From a virus: 35,397 nt of DNA. The stretch covers positions 1 to 35,397 of IMG/VR virus record IMGVR_UViG_3300005855_000003; one strand, written 5' to 3'. Below, piece by piece: positions 3,851 to 35,267 of this stretch. The position numbers and the translations under genes were made by a program. Below the pieces are notes generated by a model. It saw only the letters and a program-made list of their open reading frames with translations. It did not search any database and was not told the origin of the DNA. How positions within the stretch are numbered: the first letter of the stretch is position 1; each line of letters starts with the position of its first letter.

Positions 3851-3866
3851 GAAGTGCGAATGGTGG
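3851..3866 (+). promoter_or_regulatory. Degenerate CAAGTG-type box before the tRNA-like element
   Basis: GAAGTG-CGAAT-GGTGG matches the phage upstream motif except for its first base. A GTG codon 26 nt downstream opens a 26-codon frame (3877-3957, VLTTLKPKVAGVGSG then CNSRRLHLVQV) that could be a tiny gene; it overlaps the tRNA-like element and is otherwise unsupported. Confidence 0.3.
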
Positions 3867-3943
3867 GGGCGACGCAGTGTTGACGACGCTTAAGCCCAAA
3901 GTGGCTGGCGTCGGAAGCGGGTGCAACTCCCGCCGCCTCCACC
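3865..3943 (+). ncRNA. tRNA-like element resembling the tRNA-like domain of tmRNA
   Basis: GGGGGCG (3865-3871) pairs over 7 bp, with one G-U, with CGCCTCC (3934-3940). Directly inside the 3' strand is a T-arm, GCGGG/CCCGC, around the 7-nt loop TGCAACT, giving a 12-bp coaxial stack followed by ACC. The D-arm position is an unpaired stretch containing GTGTTGACGACG. Next comes a helix CGACGC/GCGTCG enclosing AGCC/GGCT and the loop CAAAGT. A stemless D-loop followed by a long helix is tmRNA-like, and the 3' sequence AACTCCCGCC is typical of tmRNA ends. There is no canonical anticodon arm, the loop has G instead of T at the second position, and CCA is not completed. It could be a degraded tmRNA relic or a new mini-RNA. 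Confidence 0.4.
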
Positions 3944-3948
3944 TTGTG

Positions 3949-8873: not shown

Positions 8874-9689
8874 ATGAAAACTCATGCCTTAGACCTGTTT
8901 GCGTTTAAAGTAGAAAGCACAAAAGGGCAAGAGCCCTCTGGCGATTGGCAGCAAATTGGTAAAGTCAGTGGCGGCGAAATCAACATTAACGAGAATGTGC
9001 GCCGTGTTGAAGCAGTGGGCGGCGTCTTTTTCTATCACTCCATTGTTGAAGCCACAGTTAGCGCCGAATTCGCTGTCGTTGACAGCCACTTAGAGACCCT
9101 TGAGAGCCTAATGAAGAATGACATTTCCCTCAGCGTCGTTGCTGGGTCGCCAACCGACTATATCGTTAAGGCGTTGGGCTGCCTTGTAGACGAAGTTTCG
9201 CTGGAAGGTCGGGTCGGAGAGCCGTTGCGGGCGACCCTTTCCCTGCGTGCAATGAAGCCAAGCCTTATCAGCACAGCGCCCACAATTCAGCCCGTAAGTG
9301 GCAACATAGTTTTGTGGCATGACGCAGTAGTCAGCGTTGCGGGCAACAATTATCAGGTTAGCAGGTTTACCCTTCGTGTGCGCCGAAACCCACATGTTAC
9401 CGCAGATTTCTCGGCTAAGGCTGCCAACGAAAAGCGGTTGCCCAACCTTAGCGCCTACGGCGTCGCCGAGTGTGAATTCACCTGCGAAATCTTTCTGCCA
9501 TTCACACTAAGTTTCGCAGCCGACGCCCCAACACCCGTAGATATTACCATTTCTTTGCCCAACAACAAAACTTTAACCTTAAACGACTTCAATATCGCAA
9601 CCCGCCGAGTGCCTGTTTCAGGCGGCTCGGATTTGTGGATTATGACGCTCACTTTGCAAGGTAGCGCCGACAACATTTCAATTGAGTAG
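8874..9689 (+). CDS. Major tail tube protein
   Basis: The 271-residue, beta-rich protein probably stacks in hexamers to form the non-contractile tail. It begins with strands (LDLFAFKVEST, QQIGKVSGGEININENVRR) resembling tube proteins, and has a central Ig-like part with repeated strand pairs (EATVSAEFAVVDSHLETL, RATLSLRAMKPSL). It lies between the tail terminator and the tail-assembly chaperone genes, the normal slot in siphoviruses and myoviruses. No sheath gene follows, which favours a siphovirus. Confidence 0.72.
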   Translation: MKTHALDLFAFKVESTKGQEPSGDWQQIGKVSGGEININENVRRVEAVGGVFFYHSIVEATVSAEFAVVDSHLETLESLMKNDISLSVVAGSPTDYIVKALGCLVDEVSLEGRVGEPLRATLSLRAMKPSLISTAPTIQPVSGNIVLWHDAVVSVAGNNYQVSRFTLRVRRNPHVTADFSAKAANEKRLPNLSAYGVAECEFTCEIFLPFTLSFAADAPTPVDITISLPNNKTLTLNDFNIATRRVPVSGGSDLWIMTLTLQGSADNISIE

Positions 9690-9707: not shown

Positions 9708-9908
9708 ATGTTGACACGCTACGAGCGTGAAATACTTTACATTGCTGCCATGAAAGAAGGCGTAGACGAATTCTGCAAGCGTGTAGGCTTAAGGGAGCGT
9801 GATTTTTGGAAGTTGGTGAAGAATGGGATAGGCGTCGCCGAGCCTATAGTGAGAGAGCGCTGGCACGACATACTCAAAGTATTAGATTGCCGAGGTGACC
9901 AAAAATGA
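9708..9908 (+). CDS. Small helix-turn-helix-like protein in the tail cluster
   Basis: This 66-residue, all-helical protein has the segment DEFCKRVGLRERDFWKLVKN followed by GIGVAEPIVRERWHDILKVL. The spacing resembles a Cro/XRE-type HTH (helix, G-L-turn, recognition helix, N-G). It overlaps the next gene by four bases (ATGA). In this position it could be part of the tail-assembly chaperone system rather than a DNA-binding protein. AAGGTGA lies 7 nt upstream of the ATG. It is the only HTH-like candidate noticed in the phage. Confidence 0.6.
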   Translation: MLTRYEREILYIAAMKEGVDEFCKRVGLRERDFWKLVKNGIGVAEPIVRERWHDILKVLDCRGDQK

Positions 9909-10159
9909 CCGAGGAAGTTATGACCTTAGCGGGCAAATGGAGCGACGAAGACTTCAAGTTGCTCCGCTGGCGGGATTTAATTGAATTCTGTGAGCGCTAT
10001 GGTGTGGGGCTTGAGAGCATTAACGAATTGCCACCCGCCAAGCGAATTGAAGCTGTGGCTTGGCTTGACTGGCGAATTCACACCCTAAAGACGAAAGAGC
10101 AAATCACTTTTGAAGAATGGCTTGAGCGCCCCGCATTAGGCTTCTTTCAGCAAGCGTAA
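9905..10159 (+). CDS. Tail assembly chaperone, short product (gpG-like)
   Basis: The 84-residue helical, acidic protein occupies the gpG position between tail tube and tape measure. GAGGTGA lies 6 nt before its ATG. Near its end the codons TTC TTT CAG provide a run where tRNA-Phe on UUU can re-pair with UUC one base forward. The stop is TAA. In this class the short form binds the tape measure protein and a frameshifted long form recruits tail tube subunits; a matching open frame lies just downstream. Confidence 0.7.
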   Translation: MTEEVMTLAGKWSDEDFKLLRWRDLIEFCERYGVGLESINELPPAKRIEAVAWLDWRIHTLKTKEQITFEEWLERPALGFFQQA

Positions 10160-10358
10160 TCCGAAGAATTATGCCTCTCAATCCGAAACCTTCGGTTTGG
10201 GGTTGGGAGGCACTTCCGTCACTAAAATCTTTATCCTACTTGCCAAATATCGCATAGTCAACTCCATAGCCGACTTCCTTGACCTCAATTTCGCTCAGAC
10301 CGAGTTAATTTTGCTTAATTTACGAGAATTGATTAAAGAAGCCGAAGGTTTCTTCTAA
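10140..10358 (+). CDS. Frameshifted C-terminal extension of the tail assembly chaperone (gpGT-like)
   Basis: No start codon opens this frame, but it is open from 10140 to TAA at 10356 and reads like protein, for example KIFILLAKYRIVNSIADFLD followed by LNFAQTELILLNLRELI, using the same codons as its neighbours. It is in the +1 (equivalently -2) frame relative to the short chaperone. A +1 slip at TTT-C (10145-10148) would give a fusion of about 150 residues. A 19-bp hairpin begins about 24 nt downstream of the proposed slip. Location, size and open frame fit the G/GT arrangement of long-tailed phages, where -1 is commonest but +1 and -2 are known. Confidence 0.6.
   Translation, partial: ASFSKRNPKNYASQSETFGLGLGGTSVTKIFILLAKYRIVNSIADFLDLNFAQTELILLNLRELIKEAEGFF
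10172..10212 (+). promoter_or_regulatory. Strong 19-bp RNA hairpin, possible frameshift stimulator
   Basis: Positions 10172-10190 pair with 10194-10212 across a three-base TTC loop: 16 Watson-Crick pairs, two G-U pairs and one G-G mismatch. The wobble pairs favour function as RNA. It has no T-tract, so a terminator is unlikely. It lies between the proposed slip site and the tape-measure gene. Confidence 0.7.
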
Positions 10359-10383: not shown

Positions 10384-12399
10384 ATGGCAGAAGCGACCGT
10401 AGAAATCCTAATCCGAGCGCAAGAAAATGTTTCACAGACGGTCAACGAGGTCAAACAGCAACTTGAAGGGCTTACCCAACACGCCCAAACAGTTTTTGGG
10501 CGGCTAACTCAATTCTTTCAGCAAAACGAGGAAGCCCTTATGTCGCTTGCTAAGATAGGCGCTGTCGTTTCGGGCACGCTTACCGCACTTACCGTCGCGG
10601 GCGCACGCCACGCTAATCAGTTGCGTGAAGAAGCACTCCAGATTGGCACTACGGTTGAAAAATACTCCGTCTACCGTGCCATGCTCCAAGACTTGGAAAT
10701 CCGCGCCGAGTTAATTCCACTCTTTATTATGCGCATGCAGGTAGCCTTCCAGAATGCCGCCGCTGCGGTTGCCGAGAAAGGCAACAAAGTTAGCGAATTG
10801 ACCGCTACACTGGCTGTGCTCGGTCAAACTATTCAATCTCAGACCAACGACCCGTTGGAGCAATTCGTAGCGTTGCTGAAAGAAATCGCCAAAATTCCCG
10901 ACCAAGCCAAACAGGCGCAAATCCTATTTGAATTGTTTGGTCGCCGAGCCTATACTCTTTTGCCTATATTAAGGCAAGGCGCTCAGGAAATAGATAACCT
11001 TATCAACAAGTATCGCGAGTTGGGTGTAGTAGTTAGCGACGAAGTAGCAAATAAGATTGACGATATGAGCGACGCTTTCACCACATTAGGGGTGTCGATA
11101 AAAGCGCTATTAGCGGAAGGTCTTGCTAATGTTGCGCCGACGCTTGAAAAGATAGCCGAAGCAATTAACAAAGTAACCGCTGCTATAAAAGATTTCGGAG
11201 AGCAACACCCAACACTTTCTTCTTTCGTCAGCCACATTCTTTTGTTGCTCGCAGCGTTAGGAATGCTTGCTGCTACTTTAGGCGCTATAGGGGGCGCTTT
11301 GAAATGGCTTGGCGACGGGCTTAAGTTTTTGGCTTCAATCAAGATACTTGACTGGATTAAAAGTTTGGTTGGCGGATTGGGCGCACTTAGAAACGCTTTT
11401 GCTGCTATCGTCGGTGTTGTAAATCCCGTCATTTTGGCTATCGGCGCAATCGCTTTGGCTATCGGCGGGCTGATTAGAAAGATTGAAGACGCTACGGGCT
11501 CTATCAGCAAATTCCTTGCTAAGTTAATGACTGCTAAAGAAGCACGCAAGTATGTTGAAGAAACGGTAACTGATGTTGAATACACTGCCGAGCAACGGAA
11601 GAAAGACAAAGAGGCATTAGAGCGCTTCTATCGGGAGCGACCCCACCTACGCCAGTTAGAGCAAGAATATGCACTGAAGTATTACGGAAAGGTTGGGGCG
11701 CTTAAAGGCATGGAAGCGCCGATAATTGAGTTGCCTAAAGAGCAACAACAAACTGAGAAAGAGCGCAAAGATTGGGAGAAATGGCGTGAGCAAATACTTC
11801 AATCTCAACGCAATATTGAGCATCGCTGGAATGAATATCTTGACAGATTGGAGAAACAAAGGCAGGAATGGCTTGAATTCCAAAAGAAGCAAGCAGAGGA
11901 AATGCAAAGGAAATATAACGAGTTGGTTGAAAAGCAAAAAGAAGCTTACGAGCGGATTGCCCAAGCCGAAGAAAAAATGCGGCATCGCATGGCAGAAGCC
12001 TATGAGAGCGCCGCACGACTTGCAGCCAACTTAGCAGCCCGAGCGGGCGTTTATCATATCAAGTTTGGCGCTTTCGGTTACTTCGCTATCCCAGTCGTGC
12101 AAGAAGCCCAACCCGTAGCCTACACACCTTCCCGTGAAGAAATGACCTTAAGTTACACTGCTTACATTTACTTCTATGCCCAGCAAATTTGGCTCTCAAT
12201 TCAAAACATTATCGTGCTGTTACAGCAAGCAGTTGGGCACTTAGCAGCTATCGCCCAAGCAACCGCCAAAGCGTCGAGCGTGGCAACTTTGAATGTCAAT
12301 GTGCCATTCGGTTATGACCAAATCCGCAACGCTATCGCTGACGCAGTAAACGAGGCGCTTGGAAAGCAACTTGCACTTGAATTATTGCGAAACGCTTAG
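10384..12399 (+). CDS. Tail tape measure protein
   Basis: The 671-residue protein sets tail length. It has the usual plan: a helical N-terminus (NEVKQQLEGLTQHAQTV), a coiled-coil middle, a hydrophobic transmembrane-like section at about residues 270-370 (HILLLLAALGMLAATLGAIG; NPVILAIGAIALAIGGLI), then a long charged coiled coil at about 420-550 rich in E, K, Q and R (QRNIEHRWNEYLDRLEKQRQ), and a more globular end. Relative to lambda gpH it is short, which predicts a fairly short tail. It follows the chaperone genes as expected. Confidence 0.9.
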   Translation: MAEATVEILIRAQENVSQTVNEVKQQLEGLTQHAQTVFGRLTQFFQQNEEALMSLAKIGAVVSGTLTALTVAGARHANQLREEALQIGTTVEKYSVYRAMLQDLEIRAELIPLFIMRMQVAFQNAAAAVAEKGNKVSELTATLAVLGQTIQSQTNDPLEQFVALLKEIAKIPDQAKQAQILFELFGRRAYTLLPILRQGAQEIDNLINKYRELGVVVSDEVANKIDDMSDAFTTLGVSIKALLAEGLANVAPTLEKIAEAINKVTAAIKDFGEQHPTLSSFVSHILLLLAALGMLAATLGAIGGALKWLGDGLKFLASIKILDWIKSLVGGLGALRNAFAAIVGVVNPVILAIGAIALAIGGLIRKIEDATGSISKFLAKLMTAKEARKYVEETVTDVEYTAEQRKKDKEALERFYRERPHLRQLEQEYALKYYGKVGALKGMEAPIIELPKEQQQTEKERKDWEKWREQILQSQRNIEHRWNEYLDRLEKQRQEWLEFQKKQAEEMQRKYNELVEKQKEAYERIAQAEEKMRHRMAEAYESAARLAANLAARAGVYHIKFGAFGYFAIPVVQEAQPVAYTPSREEMTLSYTAYIYFYAQQIWLSIQNIIVLLQQAVGHLAAIAQATAKASSVATLNVNVPFGYDQIRNAIADAVNEALGKQLALELLRNA

Positions 12400-26192: not shown

Positions 26193-27095
26193 TTACTTTG
26201 GTAACCTTAATGGTAGGCTATCGACGGGGCTAACACGGGCGTGGATTTCCTTCAAGTCAGAGCCCCACAGGGTTACATAGCGACGTGTCGTTTCGGGCGA
26301 CGAATGACCTAAAATTAGTTGTAGGCTGAATGCGTCGCCTTTATTGAGCAACCACCTTCGGGCGAAACCGTGCCTTAGACCGTGAAACGGCAATGGCGTT
26401 AAGCCCGCTTTCTTTTGGGCTCTGTGCCAAACCTTGCAAACGGTAGGTTTGGGGATAGGGTTGTTGTTTAAGGTTACAAAAACTAAGTCGTCGGGGCTTA
26501 GCGTGCGGTTTTCCCTTATCATTCGTGCGGTTAGGTAGCGACGCAATATTTGCGCTGTCTTTTGCCCGAAGAAGACGACCCGCTCCTTTCCGCCTTTGCC
26601 CCAAATTTTCGCCATGCGGTTAACCAAATCTAAGTCGCCCACCTTAAGGTTTAGCAATTCAGATAGTCGTGCGCCTGTGTCATATGCGACGACAAACAGA
26701 GCCAGCCAGCGTAGGTCTTCAAACTTGTTGGGGTTAAGCGTGCTGATAGCCTGTAGGAAGTGGGTTTCCGTGACCGTTTTGGGCAAAGGTTGGGCGGGCT
26801 TAACTTGCACGGAAGCGACAGGATTGTCTTGCCTTAACCCTTCCTGACGCAGCCAGTTGAAGAAAGACTTTAGCACTAACAGGCGGGGCGCAATAGTTGT
26901 GCTCCTAACGCCACGATTTTGAAGCCATGCAACATAAGCAGTAACATGCGACGGAGCGCAATTCAGCGGGGAATGACATTCGTGCGCTTGATAGAATTGC
27001 TTCAACACGATTTCGTAATGCTGCAAGGTCTTAGCGCTTAAACCCTTAACCCGCTTAGCCCACAGGAAAGCGTCTACCGCAACTTCCCACGACAA
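26193..27095 (-). CDS. int: Tyrosine recombinase integrase
   Basis: The enzyme recombines attP with the host site. The 300-residue protein has a SAM-like N-terminal core-binding domain (AFLWAKRVKGLSAKTLQHYE) and a C-terminal catalytic domain with the full set of active residues: Arg143 in DTGARLSELL, Lys about 170 in GKGGKERVV, His238 and Arg241 in HGLRHGFA, His264 in LGHSS, and Tyr273 in TRRYVTL. Length and layout are XerC/D-like, without a typical arm-binding domain. The gene ends at the iterons and starts 75 bp from attR. The TTG start has no well-spaced Shine-Dalgarno, so the exact start is uncertain. Confidence 0.95.
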   Translation of the reverse strand: MSWEVAVDAFLWAKRVKGLSAKTLQHYEIVLKQFYQAHECHSPLNCAPSHVTAYVAWLQNRGVRSTTIAPRLLVLKSFFNWLRQEGLRQDNPVASVQVKPAQPLPKTVTETHFLQAISTLNPNKFEDLRWLALFVVAYDTGARLSELLNLKVGDLDLVNRMAKIWGKGGKERVVFFGQKTAQILRRYLTARMIRENRTLSPDDLVFVTLNNNPIPKPTVCKVWHRAQKKAGLTPLPFHGLRHGFARRWLLNKGDAFSLQLILGHSSPETTRRYVTLWGSDLKEIHARVSPVDSLPLRLPK

Positions 27096-27169: not shown

Positions 27170-27223
27170 GCTGCTTGCATCAATTGCAACTACATTGAGG
27201 ATTTGACTGCAGTGGTTGAAGAA
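27170..27223. repeat. attR: attR, 54-bp prophage attachment repeat
   Basis: Identical to 10-63 and in the same orientation. It ends 14 bp from the tRNA-Glu 3' CCA and does not overlap the tRNA. Confidence 0.95.
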
Positions 27224-27237: not shown

Positions 27238-27316
27238 TGGTGGCCCCGGCGGGATTTGAACCCGCGACCTCCGGCTTGAGAGGCCGGCGTCCTGAACCGG
27301 GCTAGACGACGGGGCC
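27238..27316 (-). tRNA. tRNA-Glu (anticodon CTC), CCA encoded
   Basis: On the minus strand the acceptor stem GGCCCCG/CGGGGCC, T-arm GCGGG-TTCAAAT-CCCGC and anticodon arm GCCGG-CCTCTCAA-CCGG-type with CTC are all clear; the 3' end is A-CCA. CTC reads GAG, so it charges glutamate. The gene is convergent with the interrupted host gene and next to attR, but the phage does not integrate within it. Confidence 0.95.
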
Positions 27317-27837: not shown

Positions 27838-30800
27838 TCACCTCAGTCTTGTGCTGACAACGCTTTGAGCGACACGACCCTTTTCATCGCGAGCGATGAC
27901 CTTCACCAAGTAAACACCTGTGGGCACAGGTTGCCCACCTGAGATTGTCCCGTCCCAAAGAATTCGGTGGTTGCCGGCTTGCCTGAAGGAATTGTCCAAA
28001 ACCCGAACAACCCTTCCAGTCAGCGTTTGGACGACGATTTCCGTTTGAGCAGCATTCGTCAAACTGAACTCAACCGCTATCCCACGCCCTCGCATCGAGG
28101 TTGCTCGCAGGTTTTGGATTCTAAGCGGTTGTGTCGTCCCTTTTTCGGCAACGATTTGAACCTGACGCTCCTCTCCTGCCGAAAGCCTCAACTTGTAAGT
28201 TCCCGCCCTCAGCGAGCGAGTCAGATTAGCCACAGGGTCAACGAGGGTCAGCGACCAATCCCGTCCCAACGATGACAAGTTCCATCCGCCAATCTCAACC
28301 TCTTCGTCTTCCTCTCCGCCAACCAGCAACAGCGTCCACACAACCTTTTGCCTCATCGGCTTGACAGACACACCGGTTTTTGCTCCGTCAGCACCAATCA
28401 AAGCGGTCCTCGTCGGAGCAGCGGGATTCGGTGGCAAGGCAGCGTCAATGGCTTGACCGTTAAGGCTTAGACCGAGCAGCAGCGTGTCAGTTCCATCCTT
28501 TCGGGTCACCTTCAGGCTGAAGAGTTGCCAGTTGGGAGACTTTGAAGGCAAAGTCTCTTTGCGAGCGCCTAACGGGACGGGCACAACCAGTGTGCACGGC
28601 TGGAACGCGTAGATGAAGTAGGCTTCCCAAGGCTTGATTTCGCCCTCAAAGTCACCTTGAGCCAAACTCTTGTCGTAAACGAACTTGTAAGCGTTGGCAG
28701 TTTCGTCCCACCGCCACATGAACGGTGTCACAATGTCAGTCGCTTGAGCCAATGGCTTGACTGTAGTCCCAGAGCGAATTTGGATGGTGCTAAGTCGCCA
28801 AGGGACCTCAACTGGGATGGGGAAGCCAATCAAGTTCCAGCCAACTTGCAAGGCAACTTCAACGGTGTCAGTTGGCGGCAGCCGACCGCTGCTGGGACGG
28901 AAAGTGACAGTTTGTCGTGGCTTGACAAAGAATCCGGTGCCAACCTCAGACAGAGGCTTCGTTGGGTCAACGAACTCAAACCGAGCGAAAACAGGGTTGT
29001 AGCGGACGATGCGCCTCTCAAGCACTTGTGGGTCAACACCCAAAAGTTCGCTCAGAGACGGCGGATTCTGCCCCTGCGGTGTCAGCGGCGGCAGGAAAGG
29101 AATGCTCAAACCGCGAACCCTTTCGGAGGATACGGTGATTGGTTCTGGCAACACGATTATGCGGTAAGTTTGCCGCCAGTCTGCAGGTAGCCTAAGTCCG
29201 CCGGAACTAACCCACAGGTTGCGGGTGCCCGGACTTTCAAATCGCTCCGTCAAGGTAACCTCTCCGTTCTCGTCAGTTTTCCTCGTTGTTGTCTTCACTG
29301 TCAGACCTTGTTGAATTGTCAGGCTGACATCCTGCCCTGCGATTGGGTTTCCGTAAATGTCCACGACTTTCACCTTCAAACTCACTTCCTCGCCTTTGAA
29401 CTTCACCATCGGCGAGGTTATGGATGCTTGCCACTCGTCAACTTGCTCCAAAAGCAGCAGGCGTGTAGGAACGCTCGGCTGGACAGCGACATTGACCTGA
29501 ACCGGTTGAATATTAGGAAATTCGGGCACGGAAACGCTTATCAGAGCCTGTCCCGATTTCCTTCCGACCGAGATGGAGACTTGGATTGAGCCATTAACGC
29601 TTCTGTCCTCATCCGATGTGCCCCCATCCACAACGAGCCGACTTTCAGGCTGTCCTTCAACGGGAATTATCGCCACTTGGAACTGGACGGGCGATTCAGG
29701 ATGGGCGAAGGGATTATTCTTAGCGTCCATCAAACTTGCCCTCAGGACAATGTTGCCATCAACAGTGACTTTCACAGTCCCTTGTTCATCCGTTGGCGGT
29801 GTCGTGGTAACTGCCAGAACAGTAGGGACACCCAAACGAACTGTCAAGGTTCGGGTTGCAACGAGGTTCGCTTCGGGTGCTTCCGCCTTGACCGTCAAAT
29901 TACCCGCCCGTCCTGTCAGCGTTATTGTTGCCTTGAATTGACCATTTTCGTCAGTTATGCCTTCAATCACGGAAGTGCCTGCGACTGTCCCAATCGTGAC
30001 AGGCTCAACGCTCAATCTCACCCGAACGCCCTCAATGGCATTGTCTGCAGCGTCAACGACTTTTACTGTTGCTTTCACTTGCTCAGTCGTGGCTGGGACC
30101 TCGGTCGCATCCAAATCAAGTAAAATTCGTGCGGGAGGTCCTGCCACAACAGTGACCGGGAGTTGATAACTCAAATCGGAAGGCAGCGCGCTCTCTTGTG
30201 ACGGTATTGTTGCCGAGACAGTGTAGTTGCCCAATTGTGCGGTCTTGGCATCGGCTATGAGGGAAACGGTCAAAGTTGAGCCGCCAATTATCGTCCCTGC
30301 TGCCGGTGAGACACCAAAACCGAAGCCGTCTCCGCCGTGAGTCATCAGCGCCCATCCAAAGTCTGGTGCAAAGTCAACGGTGCCCGTCGTGTTGTCTATC
30401 ATCTGAGCCCGTGCTTGAATTCGCCACTCAGGACTGTTCAAATTCAAATCAGAGAGGCGAACTCCAAACTCAACTGTCCGCTCGCTCAAGTTGAAGAAAG
30501 CAAAAGTCCGTCTTGCTGCACCGACGAAGAGCGCTTGTTCGGAGGCATTAATTCTCGCCACTGCATTTGCTACACCGTCCCCGTCCGAGTCAAACTCAAT
30601 GAGCAAGTTGATTTCGGCAAGATTGGTTAGCCTCCGACCAACAAATTCAACTCGCACAAAGAGGACACCATCTCGCTCTTGCACCCAGATACGACCGATG
30701 TTGAGAGGAATGGCAGGCAATCTTTGAACTTCACTTAAAGCCGCTTCGTTAGGGTCGGCAATGAGCAGCAGCCAATCCGCTATGCCCGGCTCAACCCCAG

Positions 30801-33120
30801 GTTCAGCAGGTCTTGGACCCGGCGGGAGGAAGAAACGAGCCTGTGACGGCTGGACGAGCCGAAGCCCCTCGGAAAATCGGAAGGGCAAGACTTGCTGGAG
30901 AGAAGCGCCCTCATTTTTGAGTGAGCCCAAAACGATGCCCACTTCACCCGCTCTCAACGCATCGCTTTCCGCCAAAGACCCAACGGCGAAGTTCTGGAAC
31001 GAAGCAGAGGTGGTGATTTCGCGAAGTCTCAGGACATAGGAGCCCCGCTGTCGGGATGATGGCGCTCCTGTTTCTGCTGTGATGCCAAAGTAAACTTCCG
31101 AACCGTTGCCCTTGACAACGGCTACAGGGTCACGACCGATGTAGTTGGAAGCGACAAAAAGCACTTGGTTGGCAGAAAGCGGCTGACCGTTAGCATCCGT
31201 TACCTGCAACTGAGCATCCAAAGGCGAACCTGTCTGCCACGCCCTAACTTCAACCCAGAAAACTTTGCCTGCAGGTAAGTTGGCTTTGAACCAATCTTGG
31301 TCATTAGCAGCCAAGTATGCCCGTTCAGTCGTTATGTCCGTGCTGACCAAAGTGAAGGCAGCGGTTGGAATGTTATTAGGCTCATGCGGGTCAGTGGGCG
31401 AAACTATTCGGACGGTTGCTGGGTTGGTGAAAACCGTAAAAGCGTTTTCCGCACTGATTTGCGCTTCAAGCCTTGCCTCTCCTTCCAATGCAGCCCCGGC
31501 GCTAAACCTAAGAGTGACGGTTTGACCGACGGCGACTCTCGCCAATGACCAGCGAACTTGTCTGTTGATGCGATCAAAAACTCCACCGTCTTGAGGCGTT
31601 ATAGGCGACAAGATTGTCGGGATGCTTGGAACAATCACGACCACATTGGTGGCGTCAGCGTTTCCTGAGTTAACAACGCGAACCGTGAAGGTCACTGTGT
31701 CACCAACAGTTGCTTCAGGTGTGGAAACTTCAAGGGTTGAATTGGCGAGGTTGGGGAAGCCGATGGGGCGAGGTGGCGGGATTTTCCGCAGCGCCTCAAA
31801 AGCGTCTATGCGACCGCTCCCGTAATCGTTGTCCTTGCCGGGACGACCCAGATCAACAGCCGTCTCCTCTAATGCCCGCTTGAGGAAGTCAACATCAATC
31901 TCGTCGATGCGCCTGTTCTTGATGGCAAGGGAAAGCATCAAAGCGACAGTTCCAGCAACATGCGGACATGCCATCGATGTGCCCATCCAACTTTCATATC
32001 CGCCACCGGGAACTGACGAGTAAATGTCAACACCGGGCGCCGAGACATCAGGCTTGATTATGTCGCCGAAGCCTTCCCAGAAGACCGGACCTCGGCTTGA
32101 AAAGTCCGCAATTTGGTCGTTAATGTCCGTAGCACCAACACCAAAAGCCATCGGATAATCGCCGGGAGAACCCGTCGTTCGTGGGTCTGGACCTTCATTG
32201 CCAATTGCGAAGGCTGGGAAGATTCGGGCTGCAATCCAAGCGTTGATAATGTCACGGTATTCAGGTATCATCGTCGGGGAATCGCTTGAACCTCCCCAAG
32301 AGTTGTTCACCACATCAGCACCATCGTCAGTATTAGGGTCGCCGTCGGGATCCATCACCCACTGCATGGATGCTATAATCCATTCAAAGGTTCCAATACC
32401 TGAAGCGTCAAAAGCCTTTGCAGCAATCAAAGTAGCCTTAGGAGCAACCCCGATGTGCACACCGCTGGCGTTTCCACCGGCAATCGTGCCAGAGACATGC
32501 GTTCCATGTCCTTGGTCATCGTATGGAGTAGGTCGACCATTAACGGCGTCAAACCAACCGTTTTGGGGTCGCAATTTTCCTCGCAAGTCTGGATGGTTAG
32601 GGTCAATGCCAGTATCAATGACGCCGACAACAACACCTTCGCCCTGAACTTGAAATGTCTGCCAAGCCTCAGGCACTCGGATTTTCTGCAAGCCCCAAGT
32701 GAACGCTTGTTGTATGACTATGCGGGAGGAAGGAATCGGTCGCGGCAAAGTTACAGTGGTGTTGGGGCGAATAGCAGCGACGGCTGGATGACGCTCCAAC
32801 GCTTGAAAAACTTGCTGTGTCCCTTCAACAGCGATAGCGTTGATAATCCAGAAACGACGATAACGGCGAACTTCGCCTTGCTGCTTCCACGCTTCAAGTT
32901 GCGGGATAAGTTCCCGTTGACTTTGCTCCGCAGTTTGCATCAACAGCCTCTTGACGGCGGTTCGGTTTCCGAAGACTGCTGCAAGGTTGGCTTTCGCTTT
33001 GAGGACGACAATGCGGGTTTCATATTGTGGAGTTTGGGAGGGTAGAAATTGCCATGTCATCAAAACCCCAACAACCACCAACCAGCCCAAAATCAACACT
33101 GAGCGTCGCCAGTTCGCCAT
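27838..33120 (-). CDS. Very large secreted subtilisin-like (S8) protease with Ig-type repeats and a FlgD-like end
   Basis: The 1760-residue exoenzyme starts with a basic stretch and hydrophobic signal/anchor (SVLILGWLVVVGVLMTW), then a propeptide. The catalytic domain (about residues 160-430) has all three active residues: Asp in VIDTGIDPNHPDL, His in GHGTHVSGTIAGG and Ser in GTSMACPHVAGTVAL. After it come a DUF11/CARDB-like module (VGDTVTFTVRVVNSGNADAT), a pre-peptidase C-like region (DPHEPNNIPTAA), several invasin-type Ig domains (GVRVRLSVEP, ITDENGQFKATI) and a C-terminal FlgD-like module (NHRILWDGTISGGQPVPTG). I chose the ATG at 33120, 7 nt after GGGGAGGTG. Confidence 0.9.
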   Translation of the reverse strand: MANWRRSVLILGWLVVVGVLMTWQFLPSQTPQYETRIVVLKAKANLAAVFGNRTAVKRLLMQTAEQSQRELIPQLEAWKQQGEVRRYRRFWIINAIAVEGTQQVFQALERHPAVAAIRPNTTVTLPRPIPSSRIVIQQAFTWGLQKIRVPEAWQTFQVQGEGVVVGVIDTGIDPNHPDLRGKLRPQNGWFDAVNGRPTPYDDQGHGTHVSGTIAGGNASGVHIGVAPKATLIAAKAFDASGIGTFEWIIASMQWVMDPDGDPNTDDGADVVNNSWGGSSDSPTMIPEYRDIINAWIAARIFPAFAIGNEGPDPRTTGSPGDYPMAFGVGATDINDQIADFSSRGPVFWEGFGDIIKPDVSAPGVDIYSSVPGGGYESWMGTSMACPHVAGTVALMLSLAIKNRRIDEIDVDFLKRALEETAVDLGRPGKDNDYGSGRIDAFEALRKIPPPRPIGFPNLANSTLEVSTPEATVGDTVTFTVRVVNSGNADATNVVVIVPSIPTILSPITPQDGGVFDRINRQVRWSLARVAVGQTVTLRFSAGAALEGEARLEAQISAENAFTVFTNPATVRIVSPTDPHEPNNIPTAAFTLVSTDITTERAYLAANDQDWFKANLPAGKVFWVEVRAWQTGSPLDAQLQVTDANGQPLSANQVLFVASNYIGRDPVAVVKGNGSEVYFGITAETGAPSSRQRGSYVLRLREITTSASFQNFAVGSLAESDALRAGEVGIVLGSLKNEGASLQQVLPFRFSEGLRLVQPSQARFFLPPGPRPAEPGVEPGIADWLLLIADPNEAALSEVQRLPAIPLNIGRIWVQERDGVLFVRVEFVGRRLTNLAEINLLIEFDSDGDGVANAVARINASEQALFVGAARRTFAFFNLSERTVEFGVRLSDLNLNSPEWRIQARAQMIDNTTGTVDFAPDFGWALMTHGGDGFGFGVSPAAGTIIGGSTLTVSLIADAKTAQLGNYTVSATIPSQESALPSDLSYQLPVTVVAGPPARILLDLDATEVPATTEQVKATVKVVDAADNAIEGVRVRLSVEPVTIGTVAGTSVIEGITDENGQFKATITLTGRAGNLTVKAEAPEANLVATRTLTVRLGVPTVLAVTTTPPTDEQGTVKVTVDGNIVLRASLMDAKNNPFAHPESPVQFQVAIIPVEGQPESRLVVDGGTSDEDRSVNGSIQVSISVGRKSGQALISVSVPEFPNIQPVQVNVAVQPSVPTRLLLLEQVDEWQASITSPMVKFKGEEVSLKVKVVDIYGNPIAGQDVSLTIQQGLTVKTTTRKTDENGEVTLTERFESPGTRNLWVSSGGLRLPADWRQTYRIIVLPEPITVSSERVRGLSIPFLPPLTPQGQNPPSLSELLGVDPQVLERRIVRYNPVFARFEFVDPTKPLSEVGTGFFVKPRQTVTFRPSSGRLPPTDTVEVALQVGWNLIGFPIPVEVPWRLSTIQIRSGTTVKPLAQATDIVTPFMWRWDETANAYKFVYDKSLAQGDFEGEIKPWEAYFIYAFQPCTLVVPVPLGARKETLPSKSPNWQLFSLKVTRKDGTDTLLLGLSLNGQAIDAALPPNPAAPTRTALIGADGAKTGVSVKPMRQKVVWTLLLVGGEEDEEVEIGGWNLSSLGRDWSLTLVDPVANLTRSLRAGTYKLRLSAGEERQVQIVAEKGTTQPLRIQNLRATSMRGRGIAVEFSLTNAAQTEIVVQTLTGRVVRVLDNSFRQAGNHRILWDGTISGGQPVPTGVYLVKVIARDEKGRVAQSVVSTRLR

Positions 33121-33138
33121 AGTTTCGCACCTCCCCAT

Positions 33139-34280: not shown

Positions 34281-35267
34281 ATGGTGATGCCGATGAGCCT
34301 TGATTTAAGGCTTGAACTCCCGGACAGCGAACCCTACGATGTGGTCATAATCGGCGGCGGTCCGGCAGGACTGACCGCCGCCATCTACGCAGCGCGGGCA
34401 AACTTGAGAACGGTTGTTTTGGACAAACACCCCAAAGCAGGGGCGTTGGGGATGACACAACGCATTGAAAACTACCCGGGCATCCCTGAACCCATCAGCG
34501 GCGCTGAGTTGCTTGAAATTTTGCGCCGTCAGGCTATTCAGTTTGGTGCCGAGTATGTTCAGGCTCAAGTTACTGGCGTTGACTTGCTCAAAGACCCAAA
34601 GGAAATTTTCAGCAGCGCTGGCACTTTCTACGGACGAACCGTCATCATCGCAACTGGGGCGATGGGGCATAAGCCTTCCATCCCCGGCGAAGCAAAGTTG
34701 GTAGGCAAGGGCGTGAGTTACTGCGCCGTTTGCGATGCACCTTTCTTTGCGGGCAAAGATGTGGCTGTTATCGGCGACAACGAGGAAGCGTTGGAAGAGT
34801 TAGATTTTGTCAGCAGATTTGCCAAGACCGTCTACCTGATTTCGCACCACAAAGAACCAAGAGCGTCTCAGGAAGCGATTGAGCGTGCCCGTCAACTTCC
34901 GAACATCGTTTGGCTTATGGGCACGCGGGTCGTCGCCATTGAGGGTGAGGAAAAGGTCACAGGGATTGTCATTGAGCGAGAAGGTGTCAGAGAGAGGTTG
35001 CCTGTTGCGGGTGTGTTCGTTTACTTGCTCGGAACAAAGCCCGTCACCGACTTCCTCAACGGTCAAGTTGAGTTGACGCCCCAAGGTTGTATCAAGGTTG
35101 ACCCTGAGACGAAGATGACGAATGTGCCCGGTGTCTTTGCTGTCGGCGATGTGACATGCAAGGAGATTCGGCAGGCGGTTATCGCTGCCGCCGAGGGCGC
35201 TATTGCCGCTTTGGAAGCGGACAAGTTCCTTCGCAAACGCGCAAAGGCTCGTTCTGATTGGGCGTGA
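34281..35267 (+). CDS. Thioredoxin-reductase-like flavoprotein with altered NADPH site
   Basis: The protein has the two-domain FAD-dependent thioredoxin reductase fold: FAD motif GGGPAGL at residues 25-31, the redox pair CAVC near 151 in SYCAVCDAPFF, and the final FAD-contact AVGDVTCKEIRQ. The usual pyridine-nucleotide motif GGGxSA is VIGDNEEALEE, and HRRxxFR is SHHKEPR. The arginines that normally hold the NADPH phosphate are missing. It probably reduces the adjacent disulfide oxidoreductase using another donor (NADH, ferredoxin or F420); similar losses are known in archaeal and clostridial reductases. The ATG lies 6 nt after GAGGTGA. Confidence 0.85.
   Translation: MVMPMSLDLRLELPDSEPYDVVIIGGGPAGLTAAIYAARANLRTVVLDKHPKAGALGMTQRIENYPGIPEPISGAELLEILRRQAIQFGAEYVQAQVTGVDLLKDPKEIFSSAGTFYGRTVIIATGAMGHKPSIPGEAKLVGKGVSYCAVCDAPFFAGKDVAVIGDNEEALEELDFVSRFAKTVYLISHHKEPRASQEAIERARQLPNIVWLMGTRVVAIEGEEKVTGIVIEREGVRERLPVAGVFVYLLGTKPVTDFLNGQVELTPQGCIKVDPETKMTNVPGVFAVGDVTCKEIRQAVIAAAEGAIAALEADKFLRKRAKARSDWA

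Follow-up and report, generated by a model that had tools for sequence, protein, structure and literature searches.

Frameshifting in phage tail genes was reportedly first surveyed by Xu in 2004. In the tail genes of long-tailed phages, shifts of -1, -2 and +1 all occur, and UUU_Ynn has been reported to be especially prone to +1 shifting in bacteria (PMC5009743). For PA-X of influenza A virus, a +1 shift at UUU_CGU was shown by mass spectrometry (PMC3498833), and in a survey of annotated phage genomes 350 of the 2718 positive sites used were forward cases (PMC10885494). The gene pair described here, which we call A and B, comes from a virus record of IMG/VR (IMGVR_UViG_3300005855_000003); the whole stretch analysed, 35,397 nt, is referred to as the window. 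As in the G/GT-type tail chaperone frameshift, represented by gpG/gpGT of lambda and its counterparts in long-tailed phages, the pair sits between the tail tube and tape measure genes, its second frame lacks a start and its joint product would be a fusion of two domains. Lambda differs in that its shift is a -1 slip on a heptamer, whereas the one proposed here would be a +1 slip at a single P-site codon.

All features of the locus lie on the plus strand. The tail tube protein gene (271 aa, 8874..9689; Pfam PF18906 Phage_tube_2, E 4.6e-12, above cut-off) is followed by a gene of 66 aa (9708..9908), kept in relatives, which adjoins A on its 5' side and overlaps the start of A by ATGA. A, the zero-frame candidate for a gpG-like tail assembly chaperone, encodes 84 aa (9905..10159) from the ATG at 9905 to the TAA at 10157-10159. 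B (72 aa, 10140..10358) lies in the +1 frame of A and would form the C-terminal, T-like domain of the fusion. The tape measure protein gene (671 aa, 10384..12399; PHROG 9483 tail length tape measure, E 7.3e-18) comes next. The first-pass annotation had placed a startless +1 frame at 10140-10358 behind an 84-residue gene, and these coordinates are exact: B contains neither ATG nor GTG, and its first in-frame TTG codons are at 10197 and 10203. A TAG at 10137..10139, read from the sequence and invariant among close relatives, bounds the +1 frame on its 5' side, which confines the shift to positions downstream of it. There, TTC (10142-10144) is followed by TTT (10145-10147) and by CAG (10148..10150), the zero-frame A-site codon, which is also invariant among close relatives. 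The candidate shift site is UUU_C (10145..10148), where tRNA on the P-site Phe codon TTT would re-pair with TTC after a +1 step. When the frames are joined there, with TTTC read as one Phe, the fusion has 150 aa, which bears out the earlier estimate of about 150 residues.

A gave no hit to the chaperone families of PHROGs or Pfam. Its predicted structure is all-helical, with a mean pLDDT of 81 (A and B were predicted separately). Profile searches against solved structures returned short repeat-protein matches (E 0.0014 for A, 0.00028 for B) and one further match (E 0.78), none of which we took as homology. The neighbouring 66-aa gene matches PHROG 1196 'tail assembly chaperone' weakly (E 0.005). 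We infer a chaperone role for A from gene position and this weak match of its neighbour. The naming of the gene as a tail assembly chaperone in the first-pass annotation has the same basis.

Our preferred reading, which we hold at a probability of roughly 0.9 on comparative sequence grounds, is that A and B form a single gene whose two frames are joined by +1 programmed ribosomal frameshifting at UUU_C. We infer that slippage occurs at a rate at which most ribosomes would complete the 84-aa A. In some, peptidyl-tRNA-Phe would sit on the UUU at 10145-10147 in the P site with the less common CAG in the A site; the tRNA would then slip one base forward, its anticodon pairing with UUC, and AGC would be read next. 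Across the relatives, P-site tRNA-Phe would re-pair from UUU to UUC or UUU. Reading would continue through B to give the 150-aa A-B fusion. By position, the lambda counterparts would be gpG for A and gpGT for A-B; A would then coat the tape measure protein, and tail tube subunits would be recruited by the B domain.

The relatives used for comparison are IMG/VR viral records throughout, metagenomic or similar, and some are fragments. Eight contigs carry A in IMG/VR; one of them, L002, matches the window exactly across the 2 kb compared, where L007 and L008 have 2 differences. Portal and capsid searches brought in the more distant L076-L080, L082, L083 and L087 (L080 is the same record as L050), and A of the distant relatives is 46-53% identical to that of the window (tblastn). 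Searching genome contigs with tube and capsid queries found no relatives, and GenBank phage records held no match to the tube, the capsid or the DNA. In every relative with alignable A and B, seven distant contigs included, B is in the +1 frame, with the exception of L087, and the A-B fusions of relatives align end to end. The alignment with homologous phages proposed by the first-pass annotation thus finds the second frame conserved; it had counted non-conservation in related phages as evidence against a frameshift. That a sequencing or assembly error split one continuous gene, a concern with sources that are all metagenomic or similar, has a negligible probability given that the same frame relation recurs across many contigs, with differences of about 5 to 50% between their A proteins and varied positions of the A stop.

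Other parts of these genomes also hold recognisable elements. Between the portal and protease genes of the window, an 80-nt element on the plus strand (3865-3944) resembles the tRNA-like part of tmRNA and scores 47.2 bits, just above the Rfam tmRNA threshold; its conservation among close relatives is strong (L044 57.1 bits, L036 51.2 bits), and ARAGORN called nothing there in the window or in those two relatives. A perfect 54-bp direct repeat occurs at 10-63 and 27170-27223, the latter copy beside an integrase gene (26193-27095, minus strand) and a tRNA-Glu (27238-27316, minus strand). The two copies probably mark the attachment sites of an integrated prophage, the sequence to the right being that of the host. 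Past the probable right attachment site lie a 1766-aa ORF (27838-33138, minus strand) and a pyridine nucleotide-disulphide oxidoreductase gene (34281-35267, plus strand), both likely host genes. Among the relatives, a selenocysteine tRNA is found close to the record start (L077 138-230, L076 1-89), and in L080 and L051 a tRNA-Val precedes the portal gene.

Within the close group, every contig retains TTAGGYTTCTTTCAGYAAGC and the +1 frame, and indels in the A-B linker are all multiples of three; in contrast, indels of 1 and 26 nt occur as well in the stretch separating B from the tape measure gene. Variation in B falls at third codon positions far more than at positions 1 and 2 (Fisher 6e-11). 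The pN/pS ratio is 0.195 for B past the overlap, 0.125 for the core of B and 0.09 for A. Across B, both remaining forward frames have ratios above 1 and stops in nearly every sequence, and one reverse frame also has a low ratio (0.232) but stops in 5 of 7 sequences. Judged by this variation, B is under purifying selection in the +1 frame. An alternative is that B is an independent short gene with its start at the in-frame TTG 10203 (or 10197), and a TTG stands at the position aligned to 10203 in all close relatives. The linker upstream of this TTG nevertheless stays open in the +1 frame throughout the close group, with its indels in threes, and by eye the alignment has no consistent Shine-Dalgarno sequence before the TTG (unscored). 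Among the distant relatives, B of L080 and L083 has no ATG, GTG or TTG before its C-terminal third, near its end, so internal initiation fails to explain B there, and the others have no such codon at the aligned position. The first-pass annotation had singled out a separate start as the finding to look for against a frameshift; no conserved start serves all relatives, and we regard independent initiation as unlikely.

Returning to frameshifting at UUU_C, the site can be narrowed down within the short overlaps. In L007-L009 the stop of A comes immediately after CAG, so the shift must be at GGY, TTC, TTT or CAG, and among these a synonymous codon one base on exists for TTT only. The ends of A in distant relatives are TTT TTT TCG CAG TAA (L076/L077), ATT TTT CGT GAT TAG (L078), GAG GAG ATT TTT CGT CTT CAG TAA (L079), TTG TTT TGA (L080, L083) and TTA TTT CAA CTC TGA (L082). 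In the window's group and in L078, L080 and L083, TTT is the sole overlap codon for which a +1 step gives a synonymous codon, and it stands zero to three codons ahead of the A stop. The longer overlaps of L076/L077, L079 and L082 contain additional slip candidates, the TTT nearest the stop being the one common to all. The proposal of a +1 slip at TTT-C in the first-pass annotation has therefore held up, TTT being the sole synonymous re-pairing in short overlaps and TTT-Y being kept in distant relatives.

In all +1 lineages the aligned Phe is encoded by TTT with C or T as the next base, and the codon after it differs among relatives (CAG, CAA, CGT, TCG, TGA). TTT accounts for 15% of the Phe codons in L078 and 9% in L079, and the slip codon is still TTT in both. 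With TTT fractions of 0.49, 0.37, 0.15, 0.09, 0.51, 0.40 and 0.41 in seven lineages and Y following Phe at about 0.36, the product for TTT-Y at Phe over the seven is about 1.6e-7 assuming independent draws, an approximation given that the lineages are related and that the Phe position was picked after looking. A fixed TTT-Y with a changing next codon fits the pattern expected for P-site slippage on UUU_Y. In nine of the ten listed genomes, the exception being L009, the codon read after a +1 slip is commoner than the one that occupies the A site in the zero frame. The window's CAG is the minor Gln codon (10.8 per 1000, against 31.8 for CAA; the +1 codon AGC has 23.0), but it is only moderately uncommon, which counts against the slip model. 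The A-site codon is a stop (TGA) in L080 and L083 and a sense codon in the other +1 relatives. A codons 63-82 (10091-10150) have 2.81 synonymous differences where 5.21 would be expected from neighbouring genes; this lowering is no more than suggestive, with P about 0.01 for codons picked after looking.

Two other ribosomal movements would also connect A to B. The first-pass annotation had left the second frame as +1 or -2, and a -2 shift at the same place, known in phage Mu (PMC5009743), would arrive in the same frame with one extra residue. It could re-pair on the T-runs of L076-L079, but in the window, L080, L082 and L083 a -2 slip of UUU would land on UCU, UGU or UAU with a mismatch at the middle base; of the two directions +1 is the one supported, and we consider -2 improbable, marginally more so than an independent start. 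The other movement is a short hop of peptidyl-tRNA-Phe from the TTC at 10142-10144 to TTC at 10146-10148, skipping one residue. A matching landing codon is present in the window's close group, yet the codon before TTT is TTG or TTA in L080, L082 and L083, where the hop is unavailable, and we regard it as very improbable.

As for elements that could stimulate the +1 slip on UUU, a Shine-Dalgarno-like stimulator in the window was rejected: the energy upstream of the window site (-2.4 kcal/mol) is equalled by about half of the control positions in A, such energies are ordinary and no strong element occurs anywhere in the close group, which also counts against the slip model. The value reaches -9.3 in L079 alone and is moderate in L076/L077. 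A strong RNA stem-loop (10172..10212, z about -5) lies 3' of the A stop in the window, beginning about 24 nt past UUU (about 18-19 nt in most close relatives). This hairpin is also strong in L003-L006 (least so in L005, z -2.9 to -3.7) and L077, weak in L008 and L009 and weaker or absent elsewhere. We rejected it as a family-wide stimulator on this distribution; in the window itself, it is a possible stimulator.

In the sister lineage the shift would go in the other direction. L087 has the same two domains with B in the -1 frame and C_CCT_TTA in the overlap, and its fusion made via C_CCT_TTA aligns with those of the +1 relatives. A -1 slippery heptamer (X_XXY_YYZ) with B at -1 is thus found in L087 and not in the window, where B is in +1. 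In a capsid tree, 14 +1 rows fall on one side of a branch with support 98/98 and L087 falls outside; L051, L052 and L081, whose A-B pair was not read, fall among the +1 rows. The outer branches of this tree are long. Read by eye, the overlaps of the more distant L056 and L059 put the second frame at -1, with CCCCCG and A_AAA_AAC. A tentative interpretation, to which we give somewhat less than even odds, is that the lineage keeps a +1 shift on Phe UUU while the stimulator is replaced over evolution, that the sister lineage shifts -1 on a different motif, and that the two directions are interchangeable means to the same protein ratio. If so, the stimulators replacing one another would be a less common sense codon (CAG, CAA, CGU, UCG), a UGA stop, the Shine-Dalgarno-like element of L079 and the 3' hairpin in most of the window's group. 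Related genes with a constant slip codon, changing surroundings and a sister of the other direction make the direction and rate of shifting testable by short reporters. On a practical matter, standard gene prediction would overlook the second half of this tail gene throughout the family.

The first-pass annotation considered a +1 shift notable because -1 is the common direction; notable it is, though not unprecedented, since +1 shifts are known in tail genes of other phages. HSTV-2 (called very likely +1), the tsh gene of a Listeria phage and SPP1 gp17.1* have a +1 shift in a tail gene, as proposed here. Listeria tsh and SPP1 gp17.1* differ in that they are tube proteins and shift on the proline codon CCC before a stop, whereas here the shift would take place on Phe UUU, and in most members the A site holds no stop. 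The UCC_UUU_CGU site of influenza A PA-X shares the P-site slippage on UUU_C, and L078 and L079 even share UUU_CGU, although PA-X is an unrelated gene read by a eukaryotic ribosome. Bacterial prfB, with CUU_UGA, is resembled by the UUU_UGA of L080 and L083, and in L079 a strong Shine-Dalgarno-like element, GAGGAG, stands three bases upstream of UUU; in contrast to prfB, the window has neither an A-site stop nor a strong Shine-Dalgarno-like element. The +1 shift proposed here for a little-known phage family would be of a known kind, in the rarer direction.
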